A stretch of 20,696 bases of DNA from positions 1 through 20,696 of the IMG/VR virus record IMGVR_UViG_3300037993_000064; one strand, 5' to 3'. The position numbers and the translations under genes were made by a program. The stretch comes from a virus. The notes under the pieces are model-generated. The model was not told where the DNA came from. It saw nothing but the letters and a program-made list of their open reading frames with translations, and made no database searches. Positions 1 through 18,426 of this stretch are shown here, in pieces. Within the stretch, counting starts at the first letter, position 1. The number at the start of each line of letters is the position of its first letter.

Positions 1-204
1 GGATGTGACCAAAGTAAATTTGATCCGATGACTAAAACTTATACCGGATGTAAATACTTTTCAAATACCGATCCAAGTAAAATAGTTGCCAAACTAGAGG
101 AATTAGGTTATAAGCCACAAATTAAGATAGTTGCACCGCCAGCACAAACCGTTCAGAGTGCTCCCGAGATAGACGTTGATCCGATAGATGAATGGCAAGC
201 CTAA
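1..204 (+). CDS. C-terminal end of an unidentified protein (5' truncated)
   Basis: Frame 1 is open from the first base to a TAA at 202-204, giving 67 residues that enter from outside the window. Two cysteines sit near the left edge (GCD and GCK, 14 residues apart), which could be half of a metal site. The tail is proline- and acid-rich (APPAQ..., then DVDPIDEWQA), typical of a flexible C-terminus on phage DNA-metabolism proteins. The family cannot be recognised from this fragment. The next gene starts at or just before its stop, so it is the upstream member of the same operon. Confidence 0.6.
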   Translation, partial: GCDQSKFDPMTKTYTGCKYFSNTDPSKIVAKLEELGYKPQIKIVAPPAQTVQSAPEIDVDPIDEWQA

Positions 205-205
205 T

Positions 206-373
206 ATGAAAATAAATAAACATATAGAGAGAGCCATTAAAGAAATAAACTTTGCTATTGAGTGGGAAACCAAAGAAAAACAAGATTTAGAGATAGATTT
301 CTGGTTACAACAAATGTATCTACAAGGAAGAATAGACGCATTTAAGGAGTCAATAGAAATACACAACAAATGA
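206..373 (+). CDS. Small hypothetical helical protein
   Basis: A 55-residue charged protein starting two bases after the upstream stop (TAATATG). The same frame also offers an ATG at 188 (61 residues), which would overlap the previous gene by 17 bases. Neither start has a clear Shine-Dalgarno sequence, and the tight spacing favours coupled re-initiation at 206. It is rich in Lys, Glu and Ile (helical: IERAIKEINFAIEW, then QLQ/MYLQGRIDAF-like heptads), with no cysteines, signal peptide or membrane segment. Its stop overlaps the next start as ATGA. No family is recognised; the gene is supported by operon packing rather than similarity. Confidence 0.55.
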   Translation: MKINKHIERAIKEINFAIEWETKEKQDLEIDFWLQQMYLQGRIDAFKESIEIHNK

Positions 374-543
374 CAGACTATTTCAAAGATAACCCAAGGG
401 TTCTGTGTCCCGTTTGCAAGGAGCATACTTTTAGGAGAAAAGCATTTAATAGAAACGGAGAAGAAAGAGTTTATTCGCAATGCCAAGAGTGTTTCCTTAA
501 AAGTAAAGGATTTGATTCTAAAGGTTTACCGATTAAAAAATAA
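370..543 (+). CDS. Zinc-ribbon mini-protein (57 aa)
   Basis: A 57-residue protein whose ATG overlaps the preceding TGA (ATGA at 370-373). It carries two cysteine pairs, CPVC at residues 13-16 and CQEC at residues 38-41, separated by about 21 residues rich in Arg and Lys. This is the layout of a small zinc ribbon that binds nucleic acid or mediates protein contacts. Such mini zinc ribbons are common in phage early operons, and their targets are usually unknown. It is the last gene before a 97-base intergenic gap, so it may close the first operon of the window. The Cys layout is seen directly; zinc binding is inferred. Confidence 0.65.
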   Translation: MTDYFKDNPRVLCPVCKEHTFRRKAFNRNGEERVYSQCQECFLKSKGFDSKGLPIKK

Positions 544-548
544 TTTTT

Positions 549-627
549 CTTGGAGCTAAGCTTGCACCTGCTCGCTAGTATCTGAGTCGAGGAGAACTTC
601 TAAAAACTAAAGTACTCCGGCTCCAAG
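549..627 (+). ncRNA. Candidate structured RNA / structured leader
   Basis: The gap before the lysozyme-like gene folds on paper into a closed multi-branch structure. An 8-bp perfect outer stem (549-556 with 620-627) encloses a 4-bp hairpin (571-574 with 588-591) and a longer hairpin (591-599 with 610-618) of eight pairs with a single A.A mismatch. The two hairpin loops contain TAGT (576-579) and ACTA (606-609), which could pair with each other. The 3' strand of the outer stem abuts the likely ribosome binding site AGAGGAA of the next gene (628-633). No known riboswitch, ribozyme or tRNA is recognised. It could be a cis-regulatory leader, a small phage RNA, or chance pairing. Confidence 0.35.
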
Positions 628-640
628 AGGAATTACTAAC

Positions 641-1120
641 ATGAAACCTAACACAATTTTCGCTACCATAATTCTTGTAACCGCCATAGTCGGCTGGGAT
701 ATTCAGCACAGCCCCAAACAAACTGTGATGGCCCAAGAAGCCCCCAAGATAGATGAAACGACTCATATTACCTCTAGTGTTGTAACAATAGGTTTACCAA
801 CTATTCCGGAAGATATAAAAGGTTATATTCATTATCGTTTTGGGGACAACGCTGACAAGGCTTTATTGGTATTACAAGGTAATGGTCCGGGTAGTTGTGC
901 TGAAAATAGAAACCTAGATCCGACACAAGATAACAACAATATGACATGGGGAGGATATGGAATTGACAGGGGCTACTGGCAAATAAATTCTTACTTTCAT
1001 CCTAAAATAAGTGAATGGTGTACAAGAGATGTTAAGTGTTCTACTGACTATGCCTATAAATTAAGTAAGGGTGGAACGAATTTTTCCGCTTGGACGTGCG
1101 GTAGAGTTTACGGAATATGA
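641..1120 (+). CDS. Lysozyme / lytic transglycosylase-like lysis protein with N-terminal membrane anchor
   Basis: A 159-residue protein, probably the phage muralytic enzyme. Residues about 6-19 form a hydrophobic segment after MKPN (IFATIILVTAIVGW), a signal or signal-anchor sequence that would take the domain across the membrane. The folded part resembles the lysozyme/SLT superfamily: the AENRNLDP stretch (Glu88 as the likely catalytic acid) corresponds to the family's ESxxxP motif, followed by GIDRGYWQIN (107-116), the counterpart of the GxxQIN motif, and a C-terminal SAWTCG. Four cysteines after residue 80 (C86, C127, C133, C153) could form disulfides, which suits an exported enzyme. The start has a fair AGAGGAA site nine bases upstream. 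The lysozyme-like call is good; lysozyme versus transglycosylase chemistry is undecided. It sits among accessory genes and no holin is recognised next to it. Confidence 0.7.
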   Translation: MKPNTIFATIILVTAIVGWDIQHSPKQTVMAQEAPKIDETTHITSSVVTIGLPTIPEDIKGYIHYRFGDNADKALLVLQGNGPGSCAENRNLDPTQDNNNMTWGGYGIDRGYWQINSYFHPKISEWCTRDVKCSTDYAYKLSKGGTNFSAWTCGRVYGI

Positions 1121-1440
1121 TTTTTCCTGTACCAAAACCAGTTAAACGCAAAAAAGAATCCAAGATTAGTGAATGGAATAGGGTACGGAAAGAATTGATT
1201 AAAGATTTTGACAAAGCTGGTATAACAAGTTGTGAGATTAAACTACCACTTTGCTTAAAAAGATACATGTTAGGATTTGCACATACGAAGAAACGCAGAA
1301 ATGTAACGGACTTAAAAAGAGCTGTACTCGCCTGTGAGAATTGCCACACAATAGTTGAATACTCTTGTAAAGCAAATACCGGCAAGACAATGGAAGAGTT
1401 TTTAGAACTAATAATAAATGCAAGAAAAATACAGCCTTAA
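1117..1440 (+). CDS. HNH-nuclease-like zinc protein
   Basis: A 107-residue basic protein that starts inside the stop of the lysozyme-like gene (ATGA). Its core reads C39-x6-C46, then GFAHTKKRRN (H56, N62), then ACENCH (C73, C76, H77). Paired cysteines framing an H...N...H series is the layout of HNH endonucleases, where the histidines bind the metal and activate water. The N-terminus is strongly basic (KPVKRKKESK), as for DNA contact. The domain is short, so it may be a minimal HNH enzyme or a degenerate DNA-binding relative. Its 3' end overlaps the next zinc-ribbon gene by 23 bases. The Cys/His pattern is seen directly; nuclease activity is inferred. Confidence 0.5.
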   Translation: MIFPVPKPVKRKKESKISEWNRVRKELIKDFDKAGITSCEIKLPLCLKRYMLGFAHTKKRRNVTDLKRAVLACENCHTIVEYSCKANTGKTMEEFLELIINARKIQP

Positions 1441-1564
1441 GTGCAAAAAGTGTAAAAGACACGTACCAGAGTTGGTTGACAGCCTTTGTAGAAAATGCCG
1501 TGGAATTGAGGAGAATGATACTTTTGAAATTCATGATCTGAGTGTTGCAAATGAGAAAGGATGA
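1418..1564 (+). CDS. Four-cysteine zinc-knuckle mini-protein (48 aa)
   Basis: A 48-residue protein starting at ATG 1418 inside the end of the HNH-like gene and ending at TGA 1562-1564. It contains CKKC (residues 9-12) and CRKC (24-27), a tight C-x2-C-x11-C-x2-C arrangement typical of a single zinc knuckle, with a basic first half and an acidic tail (EENDTFEIHD). The spacing of the cysteines and its position in the operon support a real gene despite its size. No named family is recognised. A role in nucleic-acid binding or in modulating a host protein is inference only. Confidence 0.55.
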   Translation: MQEKYSLKCKKCKRHVPELVDSLCRKCRGIEENDTFEIHDLSVANEKG

Positions 1565-1581
1565 TTTGAGTAATAAATAAA

Positions 1582-1785
1582 ATGACTGAACACACATCTT
1601 TATCAGGAGGGGGAAGGAAGAAGAGATACCATAAACATATCTGGAAATATGACAGCAGTAATGTAAGAGTTTGCGAAGCACCGTTTCCATTTATTAAGAG
1701 TTGTGGCAAAGAAGAATGGATGACAATAAACGGTTGGGCAGACGCTAAAGATGTAATTAAGGCAAGAAGCGAAATGAATAATTAA
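1582..1785 (+). CDS. Small hypothetical protein (67 aa)
   Basis: A 67-residue protein with a basic, Gly-rich N-terminus (SGGGRKKRYHKH) followed by a WKYDSSNVRVCE...SCGKEEW core with two cysteines and two nearby histidines, a possible Cys2His2-type metal site. No Shine-Dalgarno sequence precedes the ATG, but there is an AGGAGGGGG inside the reading frame at codons 8-11. This resembles the internal leader of the genes at 1790 and 2239, and no usable start follows it here. The family is not recognised. Existence is likely from frame length and packing; function is unknown. Confidence 0.5.
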   Translation: MTEHTSLSGGGRKKRYHKHIWKYDSSNVRVCEAPFPFIKSCGKEEWMTINGWADAKDVIKARSEMNN

Positions 1786-1789
1786 AACA

Positions 1790-1817
1790 ATGAAATCAGG
1801 AGGGAAGAAAATAGAAA
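1790..1817 (+). repeat. 5' cassette edge, copy 1 (second copy 2239-2266)
   Basis: A 28-base sequence beginning ATGAAATCAGGAGGG is present at 1790-1817 and 2239-2266 with a single A/G difference, which changes ATA to ATG at the likely real start codon of the second copy. It contains a strong Shine-Dalgarno core. Similar but shorter AGGAGG-rich sequence occurs at 1602-1618. Confidence 0.7.
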
Positions 1818-1924
1818 AGATAGAAATTACAAAGTATGAAGGAGAATGGGCATTTAGGGGCGATATTAGAACTATAGTTGAAAAGATAAACGAAATAATT
1901 GAATCATTAGAAAAGGAGAGATAA
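1790..1924 (+). CDS. Small hypothetical protein or cassette remnant (44 aa)
   Basis: A 44-residue charged ORF (starts MKSGGKKIEK, ends IIESLEKER). Its first 28 bases match the start of the gene at 2239 with one difference, and its last 26 bases (1899-1924) are identical to 2437-2462, which forms the ribosome binding region of a later gene. Its C-terminus is therefore written in the leader of the next gene. At the position where the 2239 copy has an ATG with perfect Shine-Dalgarno spacing (2260), this copy has ATA. It may be a genuine mini-gene starting at 1790, or the leftover of a replaced cassette. Confidence 0.4.
   Translation: MKSGGKKIEKIEITKYEGEWAFRGDIRTIVEKINEIIESLEKER
1899..1924 (+). 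repeat. 3' cassette edge / ribosome-binding leader, copy 1 (copies 2437-2462 and partly 2626-2639)
   Basis: A 26-base sequence is identical at 1899-1924 and 2437-2462. Its last 14 bases (AAAAGGAGAGATAA) recur a third time at 2626-2639. In each case an ATG follows within two to four bases, so it is the ribosome binding region of the genes at 1928, 2466 and 2643. Confidence 0.75.
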
Positions 1925-1927
1925 ACA

Positions 1928-2242
1928 ATGAAAAAGAAAGAATTAAGATTTGCCTTAATGTTAGACGAGAAACGAGACGAAGTGTTTATAATGGTTGATT
2001 ATGACGTTATTTCGGAGGGTTTATGGGAAAAGAATGGAAAATGGGAGGATTGTTATAGATTGGAATTAGGTAATTTTCAACCCCAACTTATAAGTAAGTT
2101 TGAAGATTGGTCAAAGGGTAAAAGTTTTGAATTAACTGGAATTGGCAAGTTTAAGGGAAAGAAACATACTTATAATGAAATTGCTGTTTTTAAGATGAAA
2201 CAAGCGGTTATGGAAAGAGATAAAAGAATTAAACTTAAATGA
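1928..2242 (+). CDS. Hypothetical protein (104 aa)
   Basis: A 104-residue soluble protein of mixed alpha/beta character: the N-terminal half alternates charged and hydrophobic residues (KKELRFALMLDEKRDEVFIMVDYDV), the middle is Trp- and Glu-rich (GLWEKNGKWEDCYRLELGNF), and the end is basic. It is preceded by AAAAGGAGAG four to ten bases from the ATG, a good ribosome binding site that recurs twice more in this block. Its stop overlaps the ATG at 2239. No known family is recognised; no membrane segment or metal site is visible. Confidence 0.6.
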   Translation: MKKKELRFALMLDEKRDEVFIMVDYDVISEGLWEKNGKWEDCYRLELGNFQPQLISKFEDWSKGKSFELTGIGKFKGKKHTYNEIAVFKMKQAVMERDKRIKLK

Positions 2243-2259
2243 AATCAGGAGGGAAGAAA

Positions 2260-2448
2260 ATGGAAACGGCAGAAGAAATGATTAGAGAACACGAAGAGTT
2301 TAACAAGAAAAGAGAGGCTATTCGTAAACTAAATGAAAGTTTGATTAAAAAGTGGGACTCAATACCTTGGTGGAAGTTTTGGGAAATGCCATCATTTGAA
2401 GAGAGAAGAGATATTATTATATCGAATTGGGATAGATTGAATCATTAG
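2260..2448 (+). CDS. Small hypothetical Trp-rich protein (62 aa)
   Basis: A 62-residue helical, charged protein with a conspicuous aromatic patch (IPWWKFWEMPSFEER). I place the start at 2260 because it is preceded by AGGAGGG with a six-base spacer, the best Shine-Dalgarno in the block. The same frame also opens at 2239, adding MKSGGKK, but that ATG lies upstream of the strong site and has none of its own. The 3' end merges into the repeated AAAAGGAGAGATAA leader of the next gene. WWKFW next to amphipathic helices may be a membrane-surface or protein-docking patch, but this is inference. Family unknown. Confidence 0.55.
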   Translation: METAEEMIREHEEFNKKREAIRKLNESLIKKWDSIPWWKFWEMPSFEERRDIIISNWDRLNH

Positions 2449-2465
2449 AAAAGGAGAGATAATAA

Positions 2466-2627
2466 ATGAAGAAAAAAATATTAAGTTTTCCAAAGAATTT
2501 TGAAGAAGTCAAAGGGGTTATTAAACTTGGAGGTTATAATTATTGGGACTGGAAGTTCCCATTTAGACATTTTAAGAAAGAAGAGGTTAGGATTTTTACA
2601 AACGGTGGCATTTGGTCGGTAAAATAA
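2466..2627 (+). CDS. Small hypothetical aromatic-rich protein (53 aa)
   Basis: A 53-residue protein starting at ATG 2466, right after the repeated AAAAGGAGAGATAA leader. It is basic and aromatic-rich (GGYNYWDWKFPFRHF), with likely short beta strands (VKGVIKL and VRIFTNGGIWSV). No cysteines or membrane helix. Its 3' end runs directly into the third copy of the leader that serves the gene at 2643. The gene is supported by its ribosome binding site and by tight spacing. No family recognised. Confidence 0.5.
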   Translation: MKKKILSFPKNFEEVKGVIKLGGYNYWDWKFPFRHFKKEEVRIFTNGGIWSVK

Positions 2628-2642
2628 AAGGAGAGATAACAA

Positions 2643-2978
2643 ATGAAAGATACAATTTTAGAAGAAATAGACAAATTAAAGTTAATGGTGATGTTGGATA
2701 TGGGTACGCCAGAGAAAACCGACCTTGAAAAATATGAAGAGTTTGTTGACAAAATGATGGGTCGACACGTCAATTGTCGCCATTATCCTTTTGAAAGTTG
2801 CACTTTATGTGACCCAACAGAATACGCCAGTTATAGAAGTCTAAAATGTTTAGTCGAAGATTTATTTTACAGAAAACACGGTGATAAGCGAGAATATCAA
2901 AAACATAGAGATGAAATAAGGAAAATGACGGCTGAAATTATAGCAATGACATTATTTGTACAAAAGGAAATTAAATGA
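2643..2978 (+). CDS. Hypothetical cysteine-containing protein (111 aa)
   Basis: A 111-residue protein with an amphipathic N-terminal half (EEIDKLKLMVMLDMG, then EKYEEFVDKMMG), a central NCRHYPFESCTLCDP segment with three cysteines (C45, C53, C56) and a histidine that could bind a metal, and a charged C-terminal helix. It is translated from the third copy of the AAAAGGAGAGATAA leader. Last gene before the two repeat-protein genes. No named family is recognised. The Cys/His cluster is visible; a structural zinc site is an inference. Confidence 0.55.
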   Translation: MKDTILEEIDKLKLMVMLDMGTPEKTDLEKYEEFVDKMMGRHVNCRHYPFESCTLCDPTEYASYRSLKCLVEDLFYRKHGDKREYQKHRDEIRKMTAEIIAMTLFVQKEIK

Positions 2979-2987
2979 TTTATATTA

Positions 2988-3020
2988 TCTTTAGGTGAGT
3001 AGGAAGGGAGGTGAAAATAT
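2988..3020 (+). repeat. Shared leader of the repeat-protein genes, copy A (copy B 3652-3684)
   Basis: The bases immediately before the genes at 3021 and 3685 are nearly the same: both contain TTTAGGTGAGTAGG, then GGAGGTGAA and an AT-rich spacer to the ATG, differing at only a few positions. The GGAGGTGA is a near-perfect Shine-Dalgarno sequence. The upstream TTTAGGTGAGTAGG half is longer than a ribosome binding site needs, so it may bind a regulator or fold. A degenerate relative (TTTAAGTGAG) occurs near 4260. Confidence 0.75.
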
Positions 3021-3626
3021 ATGACAAAAAAATTTAGACTAACCAGTGAAACTAAAGAATGGTGCGGAATTACTCTACACAGAATAGAATACTTAAAAGA
3101 TTTTGCTGATGTAGAAAAAGGAGAAAAGGGTGGTTGGATAGAGAAGGAAGATAATCTATCACAAGAAGACGACGCTCAGGTTTATGGAGACGCTCAGGTT
3201 TATGGAGACGCTCGGGTTTATGGAGACGCTTGGGTTTCTGGAGACGCTCAGGTTTATGGAAACGCTCGGGTTTATGGAGACGCTTGGGTTTCTGGAAACG
3301 CTCGGGTTTATGGAGACGCTCGGGTTTATGGAGACGCTCAGGTTTATGGAGACGCTCGGATTTCTGGAGACGCTCAGGTTTATGGAGACGCTTGGGTTTC
3401 TGGAAACGCTCGGGTTTATGGAAGTCTCAAACTCATTGAGGGTTATTTCTATCACACAAAACAAAAGTCGGAAGAAATCGAAAAGATAGAACCAGACGAA
3501 GATTATGAGATTCTCTGTTCAGACCCAGAACTAGCAGACGAGGAAAAAGAAACGGATGACAAAACAGAAGAAGCAATGGCTCTTTTGAAAGAGAAAGGTT
3601 ACAAAATAGTTAAACAAGAGGACTGA
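3021..3626 (+). CDS. Hexapeptide-repeat beta-helix protein (DAxVYG/DARVYG family)
   Basis: A 201-residue protein. The N-terminal domain (residues 1-50: KFRLTSETKEW, HRIEYLKDFADVEKGEKGGWIEKEDNLSQ) and the following repeats match a layout I know from many phage and prophage hypothetical proteins, whose function is not established. Residues 51-134 are 14 hexapeptides of type [DN]A[QRW]V[YS]G, which should stack as a left-handed parallel beta helix. The C-terminal tail (135-201) is acidic and probably helical. The start has GGAGG at nine bases. The tandem DNA repeats (18 bp) keep the frame, so copy number could change without breaking the gene. Possible roles include a binding or decoy surface, but no partner can be named. 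Confidence 0.75.
   Translation: MTKKFRLTSETKEWCGITLHRIEYLKDFADVEKGEKGGWIEKEDNLSQEDDAQVYGDAQVYGDARVYGDAWVSGDAQVYGNARVYGDAWVSGNARVYGDARVYGDAQVYGDARISGDAQVYGDAWVSGNARVYGSLKLIEGYFYHTKQKSEEIEKIEPDEDYEILCSDPELADEEKETDDKTEEAMALLKEKGYKIVKQED
3171..3422 (+). repeat. 14 x 18-bp tandem repeat inside the hexapeptide gene
   Basis: Fourteen head-to-tail units of consensus GACGCTCGGGTTTATGGA. Differences between units fall only at positions that change the amino acid (GAC/AAC, CAG/CGG/TGG, GTT/ATT, TAT/TCT). The GCT and GGA codons never vary. Because the unit is a multiple of three and has no stop, other frames are open too, producing shadow reading frames that are not genes. Confidence 0.95.
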
Positions 3627-3651
3627 GAAAGCTCGGCCCTCTCCATTTAAT

Positions 3652-3684
3652 TATTTAGGTGAGTAGGGATGGAGGTGAATATTT
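3652..3684 (+). repeat. Shared leader of the repeat-protein genes, copy B (copy A 2988-3020)
   Basis: Second copy of the TTTAGGTGAGTAGG...GGAGGTGAA leader, ending at the ATG of the pentapeptide-repeat gene. It begins only about 25 bases after the stop of the hexapeptide gene, so each repeat gene carries its own leader. Confidence 0.75.
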
Positions 3685-4221
3685 ATGAAAACAATAAACT
3701 TAACAGACGATCAATTCGAACAAGTTCAAAGCGTGCTTAAAAAAGCAGTTAAAGAAGAAAAAGTAGAAGGAGTGAAAATATATAGTCGATACGATAGTGA
3801 AAAAGTATTATTCGCTTCTACCAAAACGACAATCAAAGAGGCTGTAGTAGAGGCGGTGACGAGTCGTGCCAACTTGATTAGTGCCAACTTGAGTGATGCC
3901 GACTTGAGTTATGCCAACTTGAGTGATGCCAACTTGATTAGTGCCAACTTGAGTGGTGCCAACTTGAGTTATGCCGACTTGATTAGTGCCAACTTGAGTG
4001 ATGCCGACTTGAGTGATGCCAACTTGATTAGTGCCAACTTGAGTTATGCCAACTTGAGTTATGCCAACTTGAGTGATGCCAACTTGATTAGTGCCAACTT
4101 GAGTTATGCCAACTTGAGTTATGCCGACTTGAGTGGTGCCAAAACCGAATACTGCAAAGTTAATTTCTTAAGGTCAGAAAAGAAACAAGCAGAACAGTTT
4201 ATTAAAGGGTTGGATAAGTAA
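3685..4221 (+). CDS. Pentapeptide-repeat protein
   Basis: A 178-residue protein. Residues 1-61 are a charged N-terminal domain ([15 protein letters not shown]..., [13 protein letters not shown]). Residues 62-151 are 18 uninterrupted pentapeptides of the A[ND]L[SI]x type, the hallmark of pentapeptide-repeat proteins that form a right-handed quadrilateral beta helix. The tail (152-178) is basic. In this superfamily some members mimic DNA and protect or inhibit gyrase (Qnr, MfpA), but most have no known role, and nothing here assigns one. It shares its leader with the neighbouring hexapeptide-repeat gene, so two unrelated solenoid proteins are produced from matching translation signals. Confidence 0.85.
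3868..4137 (+). repeat. 18 x 15-bp tandem repeat inside the pentapeptide gene
   Basis: Eighteen units built on GCCAACTTGAGTTAT. GCC and TTG are invariant; AAC/GAC and the last two codons vary, always changing the amino acid. A higher-order 60-bp period is visible: units 11-14 and 15-18 are nearly the same, showing recent block duplication. Confidence 0.95.
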
Positions 4222-4226
4222 TTACA

Positions 4227-4249
4227 CCGCTTCTCAATTCGGGAGGCGG
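4227..4249 (+). terminator. Weak hairpin after the pentapeptide gene, possible terminator
   Basis: CCGCTTCT (4227-4234) can pair with GGGAGGCGG (4242-4249) as an 8-pair stem with two G.T wobbles and a 7-base loop. No U-run follows directly; the nearest T-run is at about 4272-4277. It separates the repeat-protein genes from the groES promoter. Poor as an intrinsic terminator; may be a mere hairpin. Confidence 0.3.
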
Positions 4250-4286
4250 AAGTAAATACTTTAAGTGAGTTATTTTTTGCTTTCTC

Positions 4287-4317
4287 TTGACAACCAAAGA
4301 ATACATAGTGATATACT
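4287..4317 (+). promoter_or_regulatory. Promoter of the groES-groEL operon
   Basis: A perfect -35 TTGACA (4287-4292) and a -10 TATACT (4312-4317) preceded by TG one base away (extended -10, TGATATACT). The spacer is 19 bases, longer than the ideal 17, which the extended -10 can compensate. The predicted start is near 4324, only about 14 bases before the groES ATG, with a small TCTG/CAGA stem-loop between them (4324-4336). Confidence 0.6.
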
Positions 4318-4337
4318 TAATCATCTGACACACAGAA

Positions 4338-4643
4338 ATGACCAAACTTAACTTCACTGCTACCCCCGGGATAATCATAGTAACTCCGATAGAAGAAAAA
4401 GCCTCAACCTTTGTTGTTACCGGCCAAAAACAAGGGAGAATAATTCAAGGCAAAGTTATCTCGGTAGGCGATTACGATACCACAATGAATGGGGAGAAAG
4501 TTGATCCGGCAAGATTTTGCAAAGTTGGGGATATAATCTGGTTTCTTCATTATTATGACGAAGGTGGGGTTGATGTAATGGAAGTCGAAGGCAAGAAATA
4601 TTATTGTGTCAAACTCGGAGATATTAGAGCAAGAATAAAATGA
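4338..4643 (+). CDS. groES: Phage GroES-like co-chaperonin
   Basis: A 101-residue GroES homologue, the heptameric lid that closes the GroEL cage during ATP-driven folding in the cytoplasm. It is recognised from IIIVTPIEEK (like the bacterial VIVKR start of the beta barrel), FVVTG in place of the mobile-loop IVLTG, QGKVISVG matching RGEVLAVG, and CKVGDIIWF matching KVGDIVIF. The segment before FVVTG is about four residues shorter than in E. coli GroES, so the mobile loop that docks on GroEL is reduced. The later loop (HYYDEGGVDVMEVEG) is longer. The stop overlaps the groEL start by four bases, so the two are translationally coupled. No good Shine-Dalgarno is present on the short leader. Confidence 0.85.
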   Translation: MTKLNFTATPGIIIVTPIEEKASTFVVTGQKQGRIIQGKVISVGDYDTTMNGEKVDPARFCKVGDIIWFLHYYDEGGVDVMEVEGKKYYCVKLGDIRARIK

Positions 4644-6253
4644 TAGCTCCTAAAATACAAATTGTTAGTGGAAAAGAAGCACGCCAAAAATTACTAATAG
4701 GCGTGAATAAGATAGCAGATGTGGTGTCTTCGACTTTGGGGCCAATGGGTCGTAATGTAGCCATAGAACAGTTTGTGCCAACTGGAGAATTATTTGCTGA
4801 GCCTAAAGTCGTACATGACGGAGTTACGGTTTCTAAAGGTGTTGATTTAACGGATTTTGTTGAGAATGTGGGAGCTACCCTCGTTCGTCAGGCTTCAGAA
4901 AAACAAGTCGAAACTTGTGGAGACGGCACAACTTTGGTTATGGTTCTTGCTCAAGCAATCATTCAGGAGTGTATGCAGTTGGTTGATGCCGGAGTCAATC
5001 CAATGAGCCTTAGAAAAGGCTTAGAAGAAGGTACGGAGCGTTTAGTAGAAGAGTTAAAGAAATTAGCCATTCCGATTAAAGGCTTAAAGGATATGGAGTT
5101 TGTTGCCACGGTGTCAGCAGGTGATGCCGAGATAGGTAAGCTTATAGCCGAAACGTATCAGAAAGTCGGCAAGGATGGAGTAATCACGGTTGAAGAAAGT
5201 AAAGCCCCGGAAAGAATAACGGTTGAAATCCAAGAGGGAATGCAAATTGATAAAGGCTACCTTAGTCCTTATTTCGTAACCAATCCCGAAAGAATGGAAG
5301 CGGTACTCGAAAATGCTTACTTCTTAATAACGGATAAATCTATAACAAACTTTACCGAGCTTATTCCTTTTCTTGAAGAGTTTGTTAAGTTAAGCAAAAA
5401 CTTAGTAGTTATTTCCCCGGAGATTGGGGGAGAGGCATTCCCGTCATTTGTGCAAAATAAACTCCAGGGTAAAATCTTCTCTTTGTGTATTCAAGCTCCC
5501 TCATTCGGTGAAGACCAAAAGAATATTTTACAGGATATTGCAGTTTTAACTGACGGCAAGTTTATCAGTAAAGATGCCGGATTTGACTTGGCTAAACTTA
5601 CCACCGATGACTTGGGGTTTGCCGAAAGTATCACGGCTACCAAGAATGCTTCAATTATAGTCGGAGGCAGAGGCACAAAGAAAGCGGTCAGTTTAAGAGT
5701 GGCGGAGATTAAAAAGTCAATGGAAGACGTTGATTTAAGCGACTTTGACAAAGAAAGAATGAGGGCAAGAATAGGCAAATTGACTAACGGGGTTGCTGTC
5801 ATTCGAGGAGGAGGACAAACCGAAGTCGAGATGAAAGAGAGGAGGGAAAGAATTTTAGATAGCAAGGAAGCAACTAAGGCCGCAATGCAAGGAGGGATAG
5901 TCCCCGGAGGAGAGATAGTATTTTTACATATTAGAAAGATATTAAATGGATTCAAGGATGCGGAGTCTATTTTATATCGGGCTTTGTATAAACCGTTCCA
6001 AAAGTTAATTACCAATGCAGGACTATCCGAAGTAGATATGGCTCTAGCTTTAAATGGTAAAGGTAAAGACTTTGGAGTAGATGTAATCACTGGTGAGGTT
6101 AAAGACATGGTTAAATCCGGGATTGTAGACCCCGCACTTGTTGCCATAAATGCTTTAAAGAATGCGGTTTCGGTAGCGATTCAGATTATAACCACTGATA
6201 ATGTGATAATCCGGGATGAGGAAGAAATGAAATCCCGGCCTAAAGATAAGTGA
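4640..6253 (+). CDS. groEL: Phage GroEL chaperonin
   Basis: A 537-residue, full-length group I chaperonin. The equatorial ATP site is intact: STLGPMGRNV (31-40), HDG with Asp60, GDGTT (94-98), and Asp407 in the ILDSKEATKAA segment, equivalent to the catalytic Asp398 of E. coli. The apical and intermediate parts are visible as GYLSPYF (206-212), LITDKSITNFTELIPFLEEF, and APSFGEDQKNILQDIAVLT. The C-terminus is RDEEEMKSRPKDK: the Gly-Gly-Met tail that projects into the cavity of bacterial GroEL is absent. The otherwise constant TLGPKG reads TLGPMG, and GDGTTTAT reads GDGTTLVM. These differences mark a divergent viral lineage rather than a recent host copy. Phage GroELs are known to help fold phage virion proteins; pairing with a GroES in one operon suggests an independent folding machine. 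Confidence 0.95.
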   Translation: MIAPKIQIVSGKEARQKLLIGVNKIADVVSSTLGPMGRNVAIEQFVPTGELFAEPKVVHDGVTVSKGVDLTDFVENVGATLVRQASEKQVETCGDGTTLVMVLAQAIIQECMQLVDAGVNPMSLRKGLEEGTERLVEELKKLAIPIKGLKDMEFVATVSAGDAEIGKLIAETYQKVGKDGVITVEESKAPERITVEIQEGMQIDKGYLSPYFVTNPERMEAVLENAYFLITDKSITNFTELIPFLEEFVKLSKNLVVISPEIGGEAFPSFVQNKLQGKIFSLCIQAPSFGEDQKNILQDIAVLTDGKFISKDAGFDLAKLTTDDLGFAESITATKNASIIVGGRGTKKAVSLRVAEIKKSMEDVDLSDFDKERMRARIGKLTNGVAVIRGGGQTEVEMKERRERILDSKEATKAAMQGGIVPGGEIVFLHIRKILNGFKDAESILYRALYKPFQKLITNAGLSEVDMALALNGKGKDFGVDVITGEVKDMVKSGIVDPALVAINALKNAVSVAIQIITTDNVIIRDEEEMKSRPKDK

Positions 6254-6576
6254 AATGCAATGTTTGCAAAATAAATGACGCTGTTTTTGACCCTTATTGG
6301 GGTTATTTGCCTTGTCTTGATTGTCAACGCAAACAAGCTGGATTAGCTCACCCGGGGGGACAAATTGAGTTTGTAGGCGAGGATATTAAATTACAGCGAC
6401 AGAAATATCACAATCATATAATTCAGCCTCACAGGAAAGGTGAGTTGAATAAAGAATATGTAGATATTTACGGAGCGGATAGAGCTAGAAAAGAAGGATA
6501 TTCCGAAAAAGAAATTAAGAATGCAAGATATGTCTATGAAGAAGAAGCGGATAGTTTTCACAAACACTTAAAATGA
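6250..6576 (+). CDS. Zinc-ribbon protein, unknown function
   Basis: A 108-residue protein whose GTG start overlaps the groEL TGA (GTGA). CNVC (residues 3-6) and CLDC (22-25) form a compact N-terminal zinc ribbon with WGYLP between. The rest is a charged helical region with several His and Tyr residues (KYHNHIIQPHRKGELNKEY) and EGYSEKEIKNARYVYEEE. It resembles small phage zinc-ribbon proteins without assigned function. Translational coupling to groEL places it in the chaperonin operon but does not prove a shared role. Confidence 0.65.
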   Translation: MKCNVCKINDAVFDPYWGYLPCLDCQRKQAGLAHPGGQIEFVGEDIKLQRQKYHNHIIQPHRKGELNKEYVDIYGADRARKEGYSEKEIKNARYVYEEEADSFHKHLK

Positions 6577-6845
6577 ATGACCCTGCACCCAAGATTAAAT
6601 GGAAAACTAATGAGGTGATTAGACATTTGGAAACCGGACACCCATATCTTGTTCTCCATACCTCCAATTTCTATACAAGCATAGTTGACCTAATGGCAAC
6701 CGATCCGCTTGTTCAAATGCTCACACTTCTTCCCCGGCATTATGACGAGTATGCCCTTGATAGTGATATTAGATTAAAAAAAAATGAGAAGAAAGAACTC
6801 GAAGGAATGAGAATGGTGTTCCAATTCAAGAGGGCGTTTATATGA
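6573..6845 (+). CDS. Hypothetical protein (90 aa)
   Basis: A 90-residue protein overlapping both neighbours by four bases (ATGA at each end). It has a mixed sequence with hydrophobic stretches (HPYLVLHTSNFYTSIVDLM, PLVQMLTLLP) and a basic C-terminal half, no cysteines and no clear membrane helix. Unrecognised. Four-base overlaps on both sides make it a real operon member. Confidence 0.6.
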   Translation: MNDPAPKIKWKTNEVIRHLETGHPYLVLHTSNFYTSIVDLMATDPLVQMLTLLPRHYDEYALDSDIRLKKNEKKELEGMRMVFQFKRAFI

Positions 6846-7132
6846 TTTACTTTTTAATTACAATTATTAGTCTTTTGATAGGATATTGGCTTGGAACTAA
6901 ATCCAACCCTAGTTTTACAATAGGCAATGACATTAAAACATTTGCGGAAGGTGTCAAAAGGACAATCACTCCCTCCATCCCCACAGGTATAATCAAACCC
7001 AAAACCGCACAAGAGATATACGAAAGGAATAGACCGCAAAAAGAGAGAGAGGGATTAGAGGAAATGAAGAAGACGCTTGACAACTCTGAATTGAAACAAG
7101 TCAAGGAACTAAAAGAAAAATATGGAGTATAA
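6842..7132 (+). CDS. Single-pass membrane protein (96 aa)
   Basis: A 96-residue protein with an N-terminal transmembrane helix (residues 2-17, IYFLITIISLLIGYWLG) followed by a linker with prolines (ITPSIPTGIIKPKTAQ) and a strongly charged C-terminal helix (KEREGLEEMKKTLDNSELKQVKELKEKYG), probably a coiled coil in the cytoplasm. The layout suits a membrane-tethered adaptor or a spanin/holin accessory, but no lysis family can be claimed. It begins inside the stop of the preceding gene and overlaps the HNH gene by 11 bases. Confidence 0.6.
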   Translation: MIYFLITIISLLIGYWLGTKSNPSFTIGNDIKTFAEGVKRTITPSIPTGIIKPKTAQEIYERNRPQKEREGLEEMKKTLDNSELKQVKELKEKYGV

Positions 7133-7532
7133 ATTTTGTCCTAAATGTAAAAATACTCGGTCGACAATCAATTTTTCAAAAGATAAGTATCATAAAGACG
7201 GCCTTCAATCTTATTGCAAGTTATGTAAGAGTATTGAAGCGAAAAAATATAAATCGACACCGGAGTTTAAAAAACATGTTAAAGATTATCAACAGACCGA
7301 AAAATATAGAAAAACTCACATTATAAGTTCTAGAAACTATATTAAAAATAATCCTGAAAAACAAAGGGCTCGGGAGGTTGCAAGAAGACACATTAAAAAA
7401 TTCGATCATTGTGAATTGTGTAATAGTAAAATAAATCTTGAGAAACATCATCCAAATTATAATTTTCCATTAAAAATTGTAACTCTTTGTAAATTGTGCC
7501 ACGAAGAAATACACCATGCAAAAAGAATTTGA
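7122..7532 (+). CDS. HNH endonuclease with N-terminal zinc ribbon
   Basis: A 136-residue protein of two parts. The N-terminal ribbon FCPKC (C6, C9) ... YCKLC (C32, C35) with the intervening NFSKDKYHKDGLQ matches the common front end of phage HNH enzymes. The C-terminal part is a classical HNH fold: CELC (97-100), EKHHPNY (H109, H110, N112), and LCKLCHEEIHH (C123, C126, H127, H131). Such enzymes nick or cut DNA as free-standing homing endonucleases or as packaging partners. Its codon use is more AT-rich than that of its neighbours, and it overlaps genes on both sides (11 and 17 bases), which suggests it was inserted and then trimmed into the operon. It lies about 900 bases upstream of the terminase genes. 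Confidence 0.8.
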   Translation: MEYKFCPKCKNTRSTINFSKDKYHKDGLQSYCKLCKSIEAKKYKSTPEFKKHVKDYQQTEKYRKTHIISSRNYIKNNPEKQRAREVARRHIKKFDHCELCNSKINLEKHHPNYNFPLKIVTLCKLCHEEIHHAKRI

Positions 7533-7932
7533 AACTAGATTAGAATACTTTAGAGATCTATTCGGTCTTGAAAACTGGAAGATAGGACTTATCTGGCAGG
7601 AGAATAATGTTGAGGGTGAAAAGCTAACCGGACTTGATACTTACCGCTCCGCTAAAACTTTAGCCAATCCCACATACAATCAAGCGACTATAACAATCTA
7701 TCCGCAACTCCTTGAGAAAAAAGAATTGTGGGATGAAACCATCATTCACGAGCTTGTGCATATAGTTATGGCCGGACTTGATTTTTACACGGATAATGTA
7801 GTTCAAGATAAAGATCAACAAGTATTATTTGTGAATAGGGAAAACGCAGTTAGTCAGTTAACGAGTATAATATGTAGGATGCTTAAGAAGGGGACAAATG
7901 TACCCAAAGGTTTTTTGAAAGGAAGTGATTGA
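7516..7932 (+). CDS. HExxH metallopeptidase-like protein
   Basis: A 138-residue protein with HELVH at residues 78-82 (catalytic HExxH) in a helix preceded by WDETII, and a candidate third ligand Glu109 in the following helix (NRENAVSQLTS). The N-terminal half (TRLEYFRDLFGLENWKIGLIWQ and ATITIYPQLL) fits the beta sheet and helix of the small phage zincin families similar to SprT-like and ImmA-like domains. Whether it is an active protease, and on what substrate, cannot be read from the sequence. Prohead maturation is a speculative option because no other protease is recognised near the capsid genes. It overlaps the HNH gene by 17 bases. Confidence 0.65.
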   Translation: MQKEFETRLEYFRDLFGLENWKIGLIWQENNVEGEKLTGLDTYRSAKTLANPTYNQATITIYPQLLEKKELWDETIIHELVHIVMAGLDFYTDNVVQDKDQQVLFVNRENAVSQLTSIICRMLKKGTNVPKGFLKGSD

Positions 7933-7933
7933 T

Positions 7934-8020
7934 ATGTTTAAGAAAATGAAAAAAGAAGAATTAAAAGAAAAGAAACACGGCAAACGTGAAGAGAAGAAAG
8001 AAAGGAAACATAAGAAATAA
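7934..8020 (+). CDS. Tiny Lys/Glu-rich protein (28 aa)
   Basis: A 28-residue ORF (MFKKMKKEELKEKKHGKREE..., stop 8018-8020) composed almost wholly of Lys, Glu, Arg and His. A GGAAG lies about ten bases upstream, and its stop overlaps the next ATG as TAATG. The base is low complexity, so it could be spacer sequence, but the start signal and the tight junction on both sides favour a translated peptide, perhaps acting through translational coupling. No function known. Confidence 0.4.
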   Translation: MFKKMKKEELKEKKHGKREEKKERKHKK

Positions 8021-15076: not shown

Positions 15077-15868
15077 ATGAAATACTTAAAACTATCAGCT
15101 AAATACGACTTAATGGCAAGAATGCTCGTGTTGGAGGGCCAAGACCTCTACACTGTAGATACGACCAAAAATCATCTACTCGGAACTCAAGCATGGGGTG
15201 TTGGAGGCAGAATCTACAGGTATGCCCTAGTCGGAACATCAGCCCTTGTCAAAGGCAATCTTTTACAGGAAGCTGTCAATGATACGCAGTTTAACGGACT
15301 GGCAGTTCAAACAGCCGGAGTTGTTAATGATACAAGCCTTACTCTTACCAACGGAACCACAACAATAGTTCCTCAGTTATTCCAAGACGGCTCGGTATTC
15401 AGCTACACAGCAGGTTCTGGTATCGCAATCGGTGACCATTACAATATTGTAGGCAATATCACAGGCACCTTGACAACGGGAGGCACAATTAAGGTTCCTC
15501 TTGATAGACCGCTTAGATATGCTTATCCGACCTCAACAACAGCAGTCAATCTTGCCAAGAGTCCGTACGGAGGGGTTATACAATTCCCGGCCAGTACTCA
15601 AACAGGTATTCCGGTTGGAGTAGCGATTTACGAACTTGCAGCCTCGACCTCGACAGTATGGCAATATGGTTGGATTCAGAGCCACGGAGAATGTGCGGTG
15701 TTAAGTGACGGATCAGTTTTTGCAATCGGGAGTGATGTTGGAACTCCGTCAGGAACAGCAGGTTGCGTAACGGTATTTGCGGCAGGGTCAACTCACAACA
15801 GAGTCGGTATGGCTAGACAGGCGGCAGCGACAGGACACACGATTAGCGTATTCCTCCAGATAGACTAA
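15077..15868 (+). CDS. Beta-rich virion protein, probable decoration protein
   Basis: A 263-residue Gly/Thr/Val-rich protein with alternating beta strands and few charged residues. Its start MKYLKLSAKY resembles the capsid N-terminus. The C-terminal half has WQYGWIQSHGECAVLSDGSVFAIGSDVGTPSGTAG and ends TISVFLQID, resembling capsid-stabilising proteins found right after the coat gene of many phages (ending in a beta strand, with an IQ-hydrophilic-GP-like turn). It starts two bases after the coat gene with AGGAG in the last codons as its ribosome binding site. The function as a head decoration or stabilisation protein is inferred from position and composition. Confidence 0.65.
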   Translation: MKYLKLSAKYDLMARMLVLEGQDLYTVDTTKNHLLGTQAWGVGGRIYRYALVGTSALVKGNLLQEAVNDTQFNGLAVQTAGVVNDTSLTLTNGTTTIVPQLFQDGSVFSYTAGSGIAIGDHYNIVGNITGTLTTGGTIKVPLDRPLRYAYPTSTTAVNLAKSPYGGVIQFPASTQTGIPVGVAIYELAASTSTVWQYGWIQSHGECAVLSDGSVFAIGSDVGTPSGTAGCVTVFAAGSTHNRVGMARQAAATGHTISVFLQID

Positions 15869-15914: not shown

Positions 15915-16646
15915 ATGAAATACTTAAAACTTAACGGCAGATTTACTTATACAGGACAGTTCTTGCTAGAGAACCTCCTACCTATTCCCCGTGGAGTAAC
16001 AGTCGGTTCTAACTTAACATGGGACTTTAGCGGTGGCTCTATCACTTGGGGAGCATTGACTGCAACAAGCACATTAACCGCTTCTGCAGCTTTTGTCGGT
16101 TCCTCGACAGGTTCTTTTGCCGGAGCATTAACTCCCACAGGCGGAGTTGTTGCGGCAGGCGGAAGCACAGCACCTACAGTATTCCATTCAGGTGGGGTGG
16201 GGCATGAAGCGACAAGCCCTCTTACTCAAACTCAGATTGTTACCACGGACTCATATCTCTGTGAAATCTTTATCCCCATGAATTCGGTAATTACCGGAAT
16301 TTCTTTGATGAATGGTCACACAACCAATGGTTCGGTAAACCTCTCGGTAGGACTTGCAAACTCGGCAGGAACCATAGTTGCCAAAAGTGCCACGACAGTA
16401 GCCCAATCAACTGCAGACACATATCAGCAAATTCCTTTCACTGCTACTTACTCGGCAGTAGGCCCCGCCAAGTATTATGTGGTAGTTCAAGGTTCAACCA
16501 CGACAGGCTATCTTGCCACTCATACTATCGGAAACTTCGGAGCGACCTTAATCACTTCCGAAACATACGGAACATTCTTAACAACCGCCTCATATTCAAA
16601 CACAACCTTCACCACGGCCCGTGGGCCTGTGGCTGATACCTATTAG
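15915..16646 (+). CDS. Beta-rich virion protein, second of the decoration type
   Basis: A 243-residue protein dominated by Ser, Thr, Gly and Ala (TSTLTASAAFVGSSTGSFAGALTPTGGV), typical of phage surface beta-sandwich or fibre-like proteins. An upstream in-frame ATG at 15894 exists, but AGGAAAG just before 15915 and the shared N-terminus MKYLKLNGRF, whose first 17 coding bases equal those of the preceding gene, favour the 15915 start. It ends TARGPVADTY. It may be a head fibre or a capsid-bound adhesive. The large repetitive low-charge region is consistent with a virion surface, but no known domain is recognised. Confidence 0.65.
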   Translation: MKYLKLNGRFTYTGQFLLENLLPIPRGVTVGSNLTWDFSGGSITWGALTATSTLTASAAFVGSSTGSFAGALTPTGGVVAAGGSTAPTVFHSGGVGHEATSPLTQTQIVTTDSYLCEIFIPMNSVITGISLMNGHTTNGSVNLSVGLANSAGTIVAKSATTVAQSTADTYQQIPFTATYSAVGPAKYYVVVQGSTTTGYLATHTIGNFGATLITSETYGTFLTTASYSNTTFTTARGPVADTY

Positions 16647-16655
16647 AGTCCTCTT

Positions 16656-16664
16656 TGGTATAAT
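16656..16664 (+). promoter_or_regulatory. Extended -10 promoter giving a leaderless transcript (16671)
   Basis: TGGTATAAT ends seven bases before the ATG at 16671, exactly as at 12490 and 17857. Predicted transcription begins at the A of the start codon; no -35 hexamer is visible. Confidence 0.6.
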
Positions 16665-16670
16665 TAGTTA

Positions 16671-17291
16671 ATGGAGTCACCGTGTAATATCACTATTGGA
16701 ATGGCAACGGGTGGAACTATCCGTTCCGAAACCTTTACTTCAGTGGTTGGGGCCATGGATGTTCTTAAATCTCATGGAATCGGGGTCGCCCTATCGGTTC
16801 AAATCGGAGGCTATGTAGCCCACAACCGGAACGCCTTAGTAGATATAGCTCAAAAGAACCAATCAACTCACCTCATGTTTATTGACAATGATATGGTATT
16901 CCAACCCTCGGCAATACAGAGGCTCATAGACCACGACAAGGATATCGTGGGGGCCAACTACAATGCTAGGGGAGTACCGGATAAACCCATTGTTTCTACA
17001 GTTAAGATGATTAACCCCGAAACCGATCCGAATGGAGGTAAAGACAAAGTTTATTCAACCACAATGCCCGCACAACTATTTAAGTGCTATGGACTAGGGA
17101 CCGGAATGCTTTTGGTTAAAATGAAAGTATTTAACGAACTTGAGAAACCTTACTTTGTCGCTTGGGAAGATGCTAACGGGGAACACCATACGGAAGACAT
17201 TGACTTCTGTAGAAAAGCTGGAGAAGCCGGATTTGACGTATGGTGCAGTCCCACAATTAAAGTGGAGCATATAGGAACATATTTTTATTAA
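16671..17291 (+). CDS. Glycosyltransferase, GT-A type
   Basis: A 206-residue enzyme of the nucleotide-sugar-using GT-A class. LMFIDNDMVFQP (68-79) carries the D-x-D metal/sugar-nucleotide motif (Asp72-Asn73-Asp74). VGANYNARG follows, and HHTEDIDFCRKAGEAGFDV (172-190) has the ED pair that serves as catalytic-base region in GT2-like enzymes, then a late VEHIGTY with His200. The enzyme would transfer a sugar to an acceptor that the sequence does not identify. Because it lies inside the virion gene block with a methyltransferase, modification of capsid or fibre proteins is a reasonable option; host-surface modification is another. It is about half the size of large glycosyltransferases and has no membrane segment. 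Confidence 0.8.
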   Translation: MESPCNITIGMATGGTIRSETFTSVVGAMDVLKSHGIGVALSVQIGGYVAHNRNALVDIAQKNQSTHLMFIDNDMVFQPSAIQRLIDHDKDIVGANYNARGVPDKPIVSTVKMINPETDPNGGKDKVYSTTMPAQLFKCYGLGTGMLLVKMKVFNELEKPYFVAWEDANGEHHTEDIDFCRKAGEAGFDVWCSPTIKVEHIGTYFY

Positions 17292-17864
17292 ATGAAAGGC
17301 TATTACTCGGAAAATTGGTTCAATAATAATATTACGATTTGGAGCAATATGCTCGGTTACTTAAAAGGAAGCAAACTTGAAGCTATCGAGATAGGCTCGT
17401 TTGAGGGAATGTCGGCAGTTTGGACTCTTGAGAACATTTTAACTAACCCTGAAAGCCATTTAACTTGTATTGACAATTTCAAGGGGGGTTGGGAACAGGA
17501 CAAGAACATAGATTGGGCCGATATTAAAAGACGCTTCTTAAAGAATACCGAGCCTTACAAGGACAAGGTTGAACTTATAGAGAGCAACTCGGCAACTTAC
17601 TTAAAGAAACGCACCAAGAAAGCCGACCTTATTTATATTGACGGCTCACACACAACAAGTGATGCTTTAACGGATGCGGTGCTTTGTCACCTTCTCTTAA
17701 ACCCTGCAGGTGTAATCATATTCGATGACTATTTGTGGACTGGAACGGTGAAAACTCCCAATCTTCCTAAAGGGGCAATAGACTCATTTTTGGATTGCTT
17801 CCCTACACAATACGAGCTTCTCTATCTCGGCTACCAAGTAATAGTCCGCAAAAAAGTGGTATAA
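17292..17864 (+). CDS. SAM-dependent methyltransferase (class I)
   Basis: A 190-residue Rossmann-fold methyltransferase. Motif I is EIGSFEGMSAVW (33-44), the acidic end of beta 2 is Asp61 in LTCIDNFKGG, and the active-site region holds LIYIDGSHTTSDALTDA (113-129) with PAGVIIFDDYLW (138-149). This IDGSH...FDDY pairing is typical of the Methyltransf_24 type found in sugar and small-molecule biosynthesis clusters. Start ATG follows directly after the glycosyltransferase stop (no gap), so they are co-translated. The natural partner of the glycosyltransferase is methylation of the same sugar or glycoprotein; the substrate is unknown. Confidence 0.8.
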   Translation: MKGYYSENWFNNNITIWSNMLGYLKGSKLEAIEIGSFEGMSAVWTLENILTNPESHLTCIDNFKGGWEQDKNIDWADIKRRFLKNTEPYKDKVELIESNSATYLKKRTKKADLIYIDGSHTTSDALTDAVLCHLLLNPAGVIIFDDYLWTGTVKTPNLPKGAIDSFLDCFPTQYELLYLGYQVIVRKKVV

Positions 17865-17865
17865 T
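17857..17865 (+). promoter_or_regulatory. Extended -10 promoter giving a leaderless transcript (17872)
   Basis: TGGTATAAT overlaps the last codons of the methyltransferase and ends seven bases before ATG 17872. Third instance of the exact TGGTATAAT-to-ATG spacing. Confidence 0.6.
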
Positions 17866-17871
17866 ATACTC

Positions 17872-18426
17872 ATGAAATTAAACCCTCGTTTTAATGTTGT
17901 AAGTGCCTCATATTGGCGAGACCAAAATAGAGTCCCGATTACAACGGACGGCATTATCTCTACCGATACCCAAACGTTTACTGGAAGCAACGCAACGGTT
18001 AATGTACCCATATTCAGTTTTATAGGAATTATTGAAATTAGGGGACTTTGGGGGGTTGTTACAACTACCCTTGGAGCAAATCATACCGCAGCCTCTTGGA
18101 GAATAAACGATCAGACAGCCCAAGTTTATTTGACAGCAATCGGAGGGGTGGACATTTCAAATGCCTCAGTTGGCTCAATGATTTACAAAATGGGACTTGT
18201 GGCTACAGCGGCAACTTATAAATCGGCAGCCGCAGGATATATTTCGGAACCAGCAGCAACTCAAATGATTGACCTAACTCCGGTAATTATTGGAGACAAA
18301 ACCGCACTTAATACGACTACCATAGAATATCATTATGCAACCACCGACCAACCCACAAGCGGTTCAATGACATTCTTCCTCAGGTGGTTGCCGATGAGCA
18401 ATGACGCAAGTATAACTTCGTTATAA
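17872..18426 (+). CDS. Virion-region beta-rich protein
   Basis: A 184-residue protein rich in Thr, Ala and Ile with alternating beta segments (VNVPIFSFIGIIEIRGLWGVVTTTLGANHTAASWRI) and few charges. It ends LRWLPMSNDASITSL. Its first residues, MKLNPRF, fit the KL[SN]x[KR][FY] motif present on the capsid and decoration-like proteins. It has its own leaderless promoter. A structural role on the head or at the head-tail joint is inferred from composition and location; no known domain is recognised. Confidence 0.6.
   Translation: MKLNPRFNVVSASYWRDQNRVPITTDGIISTDTQTFTGSNATVNVPIFSFIGIIEIRGLWGVVTTTLGANHTAASWRINDQTAQVYLTAIGGVDISNASVGSMIYKMGLVATAATYKSAAAGYISEPAATQMIDLTPVIIGDKTALNTTTIEYHYATTDQPTSGSMTFFLRWLPMSNDASITSL

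Follow-up and report, generated by a model that had tools for sequence, protein, structure and literature searches.

The window analyzed here is the complete 20,696-base record of an uncultivated tailed bacteriophage, a metagenome contig that represents a partial genome. Several of its small genes share almost identical borders and have different interiors, and this raises the question whether the borders are places at which genes are exchanged, or whether they have been conserved or multiplied for other reasons. An initial reading of the sequence alone had proposed that they are recombination handles, which allow small genes to be exchanged together with their translation signals. The borders (edges A, B, and C and leader D) and the genes (X and 1-5) are arranged as follows; G001 denotes a second phage with the same edges:

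Edge A, 1582-1615, + strand: 32/34 identical to G001, with 27 exact bases at 1589-1615
Gene X, ORF 1582-1785, interior 1616-1785, + strand: 67 aa
Edge B copy 1, 1789-1817, + strand: AGGAGG, then ATA at the usual start codon distance; in-frame ATG at 1790
Gene 1, ORF 1790-1924, interior 1818-1897, + strand: 44 aa, no family
Edge C copy 1, 1898-1951, + strand: 3' end of gene 1, Shine-Dalgarno stretch, start and first codons of gene 2
Gene 2, 1928-2242, + strand: 104 aa, no family
Edge B copy 2, 2238-2266, + strand: AGGAGG, seven bases, ATG; overlaps the stop codon of gene 2 (ATGA)
Gene 3, 2239-2448, + strand: 69 aa from 2239, no family; stop codon inside edge C copy 2
Edge C copy 2, 2436-2489, + strand: the same 27 bases as in copy 1; leader and first codons of gene 4
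Gene 4, 2466-2627, + strand: 53 aa, no family
Edge C short copy, 2626-2648, + strand: Shine-Dalgarno leader and start of gene 5
Gene 5, 2643-2978, + strand: 111 aa, no family
Leader D copy 1, 2990-3024, + strand: precedes a beta-solenoid repeat gene (3021-3626)
Leader D copy 2, 3654-3688, + strand: precedes a pentapeptide-repeat gene (3685-4221)

After masking of two tandem arrays, edges B and C are the two longest non-tandem repeats of the window, and repeats of 27 and 24 bases top the repeat list. The longest repeat of 27 bases compares with 13-19 bases in 200 dinucleotide shuffles of the window; in 500 shuffles of the AT-rich part from 1101 to 3000 it was 10-18 bases. The sequence-only reading had noticed that two stretches start alike with one difference, and indeed 27 of 28 bases are identical (1790-1817 versus 2239-2266). 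The 26 identical bases that it had described at their ends are in fact 27 exact bases (1898-1924 and 2436-2462), and the short third copy of the end sequence is present as 14 exact bases at 2626-2639. To delimit the edges, we applied a simple match/mismatch score, counting outward from each start codon. The B copies match at 28 of 29 positions, from -1 to +27 relative to the start codons, and the two long C copies are alike from -30 to +23 (47/54, the first 27 exact), reaching past the next start codon. The short C copy extends from -17 to +4 or +5 and is identical at 21 of 22-23 positions, including the start codon. The repeat periods are 449 bp for edge B and 538 bp for edge C. The shared segments are 87-97% identical, in contrast to only 7-19 matches in the adjacent 40 bases. 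This abrupt drop of identity at the segment ends resembles a junction, unlike a gradual divergence, and such sharp drop-offs would fit crossover points.

Edge C has the arrangement GGAG, nine bases, ATG in all of its four copies. The first 27 bases of copy 1 encode IESLEKER and the stop codon, in frame with the rest of gene 1; in copy 2 a TAG immediately before the edge (2433-2435) closes this frame. Edge A holds an AGGAGG core, and an in-frame MxxHTSLSGGG is encoded in the window and in G001 alike; it has a single copy in the window, is recognizable only by comparison with G001, and had been overlooked at first. In four of five instances of edges A and B no ATG, GTG, or TTG follows the AGGAGG at normal spacing, and a usable start codon after the Shine-Dalgarno stretch is missing in edge A and in two of three instances of edge B. 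Therefore, the translational rationale is incomplete for these two edges, and the proposal that genes travel together with their translation signals stands for edge C, with its constant spacing, but is weak for A and B. The start position of edge B is ATA in window copy 1 and in G001, and ATG in copy 2. The ATA in copy 1 is thus real, as had been reported, but its interpretation as a former ATG is unsupported: because G001 also has ATA there, the direction is not obvious, and it may be the reverse of the true one. Gene 3 has an alternative start, an internal ATG, which gives a shorter product and has a better Shine-Dalgarno spacing.

The two copies of leader D, which had also been overlooked, are identical at 31 of 35 positions, and the genes behind them are unrelated (YdcK-type beta-solenoid versus pentapeptide). 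Seventeen bases of leader D (GGAGGTGAAAATATATG) are also present in the contig of a relative, L025, ahead of a different gene. No stable stem-loop or terminator was detected in the edges, which fold no better than shuffles. The promoter-like count between 1000 and 4700 was 11 versus 10.0 in shuffles, and terminator-like sites were absent there. A 22-mer of edge C had no match in bacterial and archaeal genomes. A 20-mer of edge B had three matches in bacterial contigs, one of them an ordinary gene leader; part of this sequence can therefore come from Shine-Dalgarno composition, and we judged the three matches to be near the level of chance and of that composition.

The coding parts between the edges had been described as unrelated, and our comparisons, made after removal of the residues encoded by the edges, agree with this: none of nine protein pairs and eight DNA pairs was notably above residue or base shuffles. 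The best scores were obtained for genes 1 and 3 at the protein level (181 of 1000 shuffles as high) and for genes 2 and 4 at the DNA level (88 of 500). A blastp match between genes 1 and 3 (E 4e-4) was rejected as homology, because it is due to the MKSGGKK tip common to both; without the tip, 181 of 1000 shuffles reach the score. Shuffle tests revealed no relationship between the interior of gene X and the gene that follows edge A in G001. Pfam and PHROGs gave no convincing match for genes X and 1-5. Relatives of gene 2 were found neither in viral contigs (peptide patterns) nor in phage records, and tblastn revealed none of gene 5 in phage records.

Exact scans with 18-27-mers of edges A, B, and C against 2.9 million viral contigs led to one other record each, and it was always G001 (IMGVR_UViG_3300025476_000067, 17,053 bases; loci L002 and L018). 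The 24-base form of edge B had no match in these contigs, because G001 differs at one base. G001 contains the three edges in the order of the window, each once, with different genes between them, and the check proposed in the sequence-only reading thus turned out in its favor. The layout is A-x-B-y-C-z in G001 and A-x-B-1-C-2-B-3-C-4 in the window, and the window thus exceeds G001 by one 449-bp unit, whose connectors are the same. The longest piece common to both comprises 29 bases, compared to 13-17 in 100 shuffled pairs. Outside of the edges, only one 18-base match and weaker pieces were found, and the large terminases of the two phages fall in different PHROG families. In edge C of G001 a short MKNKVI frame opens and leads into the start codon (ATG) of the following gene, and IESLEKER persists as the tail of a 16-codon ORF.

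An alignment of related phages had been suggested, and it revealed that relatives carry other genes at the locus and no edges. A terminase query retrieved 48 loci in viral contigs, six of which (L020-L025) match the terminase at 71-100%; in aligned stretches, the DNA of the true relatives is about 66-80% identical to that of the window phage. One of the six, L020 (G002), is a 99% relative, which is silent on the locus because its contig begins only at window 3184, and among the other five only L024 and L025 span it. In L025 the lysozyme-like gene before and the GroES/GroEL genes after the locus are kept, and a different gene set lies between them, which includes a NinG gene and a TnpB-like gene. 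The latter (TnpB/Cas12f-like, IS605 OrfB) is located at 3079-4149 of L025. The GroES and GroEL genes of the window phage itself are at 4338-6253. L024 contains yet other genes at the locus.

The edges were found neither in L024 or L025 nor, apart from G001 and G002, in the ten records that were searched over their full length; matches in two of the records (G007 and G011) were 17-20-base pieces from other parts of the query and were discarded. They were also not found in the five terminase relatives of G001, only two of which (L069 and L071) include about 7 kb of sequence before the terminase gene. L069 has a leader ending in AAATAATAT at three gene junctions (2790-3297, 80-100% over 20 bases). 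A phage collection of 50,697 records contained no near match for window 1-8000. A distant search with 1580-3000 yielded small pieces from five records, the best of which, 49 bases inside a long gene of an Altiarchaeum virus, was judged to be chance. With the edges alone, none of the matches listed in this collection was better than E 0.1, and plasmids gave no match.

The window phage and its 99% relative G002 differ far from this locus. The 1.9 kb at 16003-17899 are replaced by about 0.74 kb in G002; the window version contains a glycosyltransferase-like gene (16671-17291, weak Anp1 match) and a methyltransferase gene (17292-17864). Seventeen common bases from an ATG (MKYLKL) at window 15077-15093 and 15915-15931 and at G002 28309 open different genes in the structural region, the same gene start thus preceding different proteins. 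A promoter-like repeat of 16-17 bases holding TGGTATAATAT is present at window 17855-17870 and at G002 16252 and 22450.

The locus is probably a variable small-gene region, whose genes phages would gain, lose, and exchange with each other by recombination at boundary sequences. From the sequences we infer that crossovers at the edges may be the source of the pattern. Conserved boundary sequences of about 25-50 bases would sit at gene junctions and host the crossovers. Each edge includes one or more of three elements, namely a gene's end, a Shine-Dalgarno stretch, and the beginning of the following gene, and a swap at these sites would therefore tend to leave a translatable operon. A crossover between the two B copies would delete the 449-bp unit and leave the layout of G001, and an intermolecular crossover, the reverse, could add such a unit. 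Copy 1 of edge C, which keeps the in-frame gene end, would be the older form, and copy 2 and the copy in G001 would be products of cutting and joining. Possible scars are the stop codon of gene 3 inside edge C and, in G001, the MKNKVI frame and the IESLEKER tail. The interpretation of the edges as recombination handles is partly supported, by the same-order edges in G001, the other genes at the locus in relatives, and the sharp drop-offs. We saw no crossover and found no parent genome, and A, B, and C have turned up in only two contigs.

A gene for a NinG/Rap junction endonuclease adjoins the region in G001 (phrog_5034, E 7.5e-20; Pfam NinG 6.7e-06), and the NinG gene that L025 has in its variable region (Pfam NinG 6.9e-07) is 78% identical to it at the DNA level. 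At the matching place the window has a gene (1117-1440) with no convincing family match. Rap cuts recombination intermediates in lambda; the adjacency of NinG to the region is a correlation. No annealing recombinase was identified among ten ORFs upstream in the L025 contig and one ORF of L024 (partial sequence).

Alternatively, the edges could be conserved regulatory leaders, maintained or re-created by selection on translation control; the genes would turn over by non-homologous routes, with no crossovers at the edges. Every edge sits on a gene start, and the Shine-Dalgarno spacing of edge C is constant in 4/4 copies. In a survey of 52 loci (502,372 bases, repeats of at least 16 bases) 11 of 65 repeat pairs had both copies at the start of an ORF, versus 0.0089 expected per pair at random places, a rough value because the pairs were taken on both strands (about half are independent) and some loci are related. 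This excess indicates that repeated leaders are a common phage habit, and L025 and L069 have repeated leaders of their own; what is distinctive here is that three edges, in order, are common to a phage with another terminase. However, about 15 bases upstream of the Shine-Dalgarno stretch are identical in A and C although that stretch does not require them, A and most B copies are not followed by a start codon at normal spacing, stable stem-loops and terminators are absent from the edges, and closer relatives manage without them. Conserved leaders are, in our view, a rather unlikely explanation of the locus. It is very unlikely that a B-gene-C-gene unit was duplicated in tandem and that its coding parts then diverged rapidly. 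The order B-1-C-2-B-3-C-4 and the periods of 449 and 538 bp are as expected for a duplication, but genes 1/3 and 2/4 are not above shuffles in protein or DNA and differ in length, and the edge cores are 97-100% identical; so complete a divergence would not halt at the edge.

It is highly improbable that a site-specific cassette system, integron-like or att-like and with a dedicated recombinase, operates here. Repeated connectors do flank exchangeable small genes, but attC-type hairpins are absent, as the edges fold no better than shuffles, there are several different connectors instead of one, and no integrase was among the families found in the scanned proteins of this incomplete genome. A misjoining of contigs at short repeats is highly improbable, too. 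All sequences are metagenome contigs, and the 99% relative G002, which starts at 3184, gives no independent cover of the locus; nevertheless, the reading frames run through, and the edges recur, once each and in this order, in G001, which is an IMG/VR contig of its own. Moreover, repeats of 27 bases are short for assemblers to misjoin on.

With recombination at boundary sequences as the preferred explanation, the case belongs with the conserved boundary sequences for module exchange, a process already proposed for other phages. For lambdoid phages, it has been proposed that homologous crossovers take place at short conserved gene-border sequences (Clark et al. 2001; Susskind and Botstein 1978, cited in PMC3029335). 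The edges are likewise short conserved borders, a NinG/Rap gene adjoins the region (G001) or lies within it (L025), and A, B, and C are conserved at the borders in the window and G001 around unrelated interiors, as is characteristic of boundary sequences. In contrast to the lambdoid boundaries, the edges were found in two contigs only, and the same edge types are repeated within one genome. At the gene 67-68 junction of the Cluster I mycobacteriophages Island3 and Brujita, the 3' end of an extra gene repeats the end of its neighbor over about 50 bp, and the authors infer recombination between the repeats (PMC3029335). The repeated gene end and the ambiguity between insertion and deletion are common to both cases, whereas the window phage has two repeated edge types, which a phage with a different terminase also carries.

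The SAS and ESAS elements of Cluster K mycobacteriophages are repeats directly before the starts of different gene families; SAS has one 13-bp asymmetric consensus in many copies, ESAS has 17-bp inverted repeats, and homologous recombination is mentioned by the authors as a possible role (PMC3203893). The edges resemble SAS in being repeated directly ahead of the starts of unrelated genes, but they are four distinct longer sequences, each present one to three times, and a comparison by eye revealed no match to GGGATAGGAGCCC. They were rejected as SAS/ESAS, as they differ from the published consensus by eye and fold no better than shuffles. The PeSL of T4-type phages (Arbiol 2010; Comeau 2014) are mobile regulatory cassettes with an early promoter and a terminator stem-loop (PMC4503421). 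They are, like the edges, conserved intergenic elements tied to gene shuffling between phages; the edges were rejected as PeSL, having neither a promoter nor a stem-loop above chance.

The trade of small genes between phages is often ascribed to illegitimate recombination, because most mosaic borders show no boundary sequences (PMC3029335). Here, a single genome displays such boundaries, a second phage whose terminase is different displays them as well, and their end points are clear. A far-reaching idea, which we regard as improbable, is that A, B, and C are standard connectors, habitat- or host-wide, by which any small gene between them would pass among phages with unrelated heads; A and B would also graft a movable N-terminal tag (HTSLSGGG, MKSGGKK) onto unrelated small proteins, because each includes a start codon and always encodes the same peptide at the N-terminus. 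Boundaries that are visible and have clear end points make the connector idea testable on real sequences.
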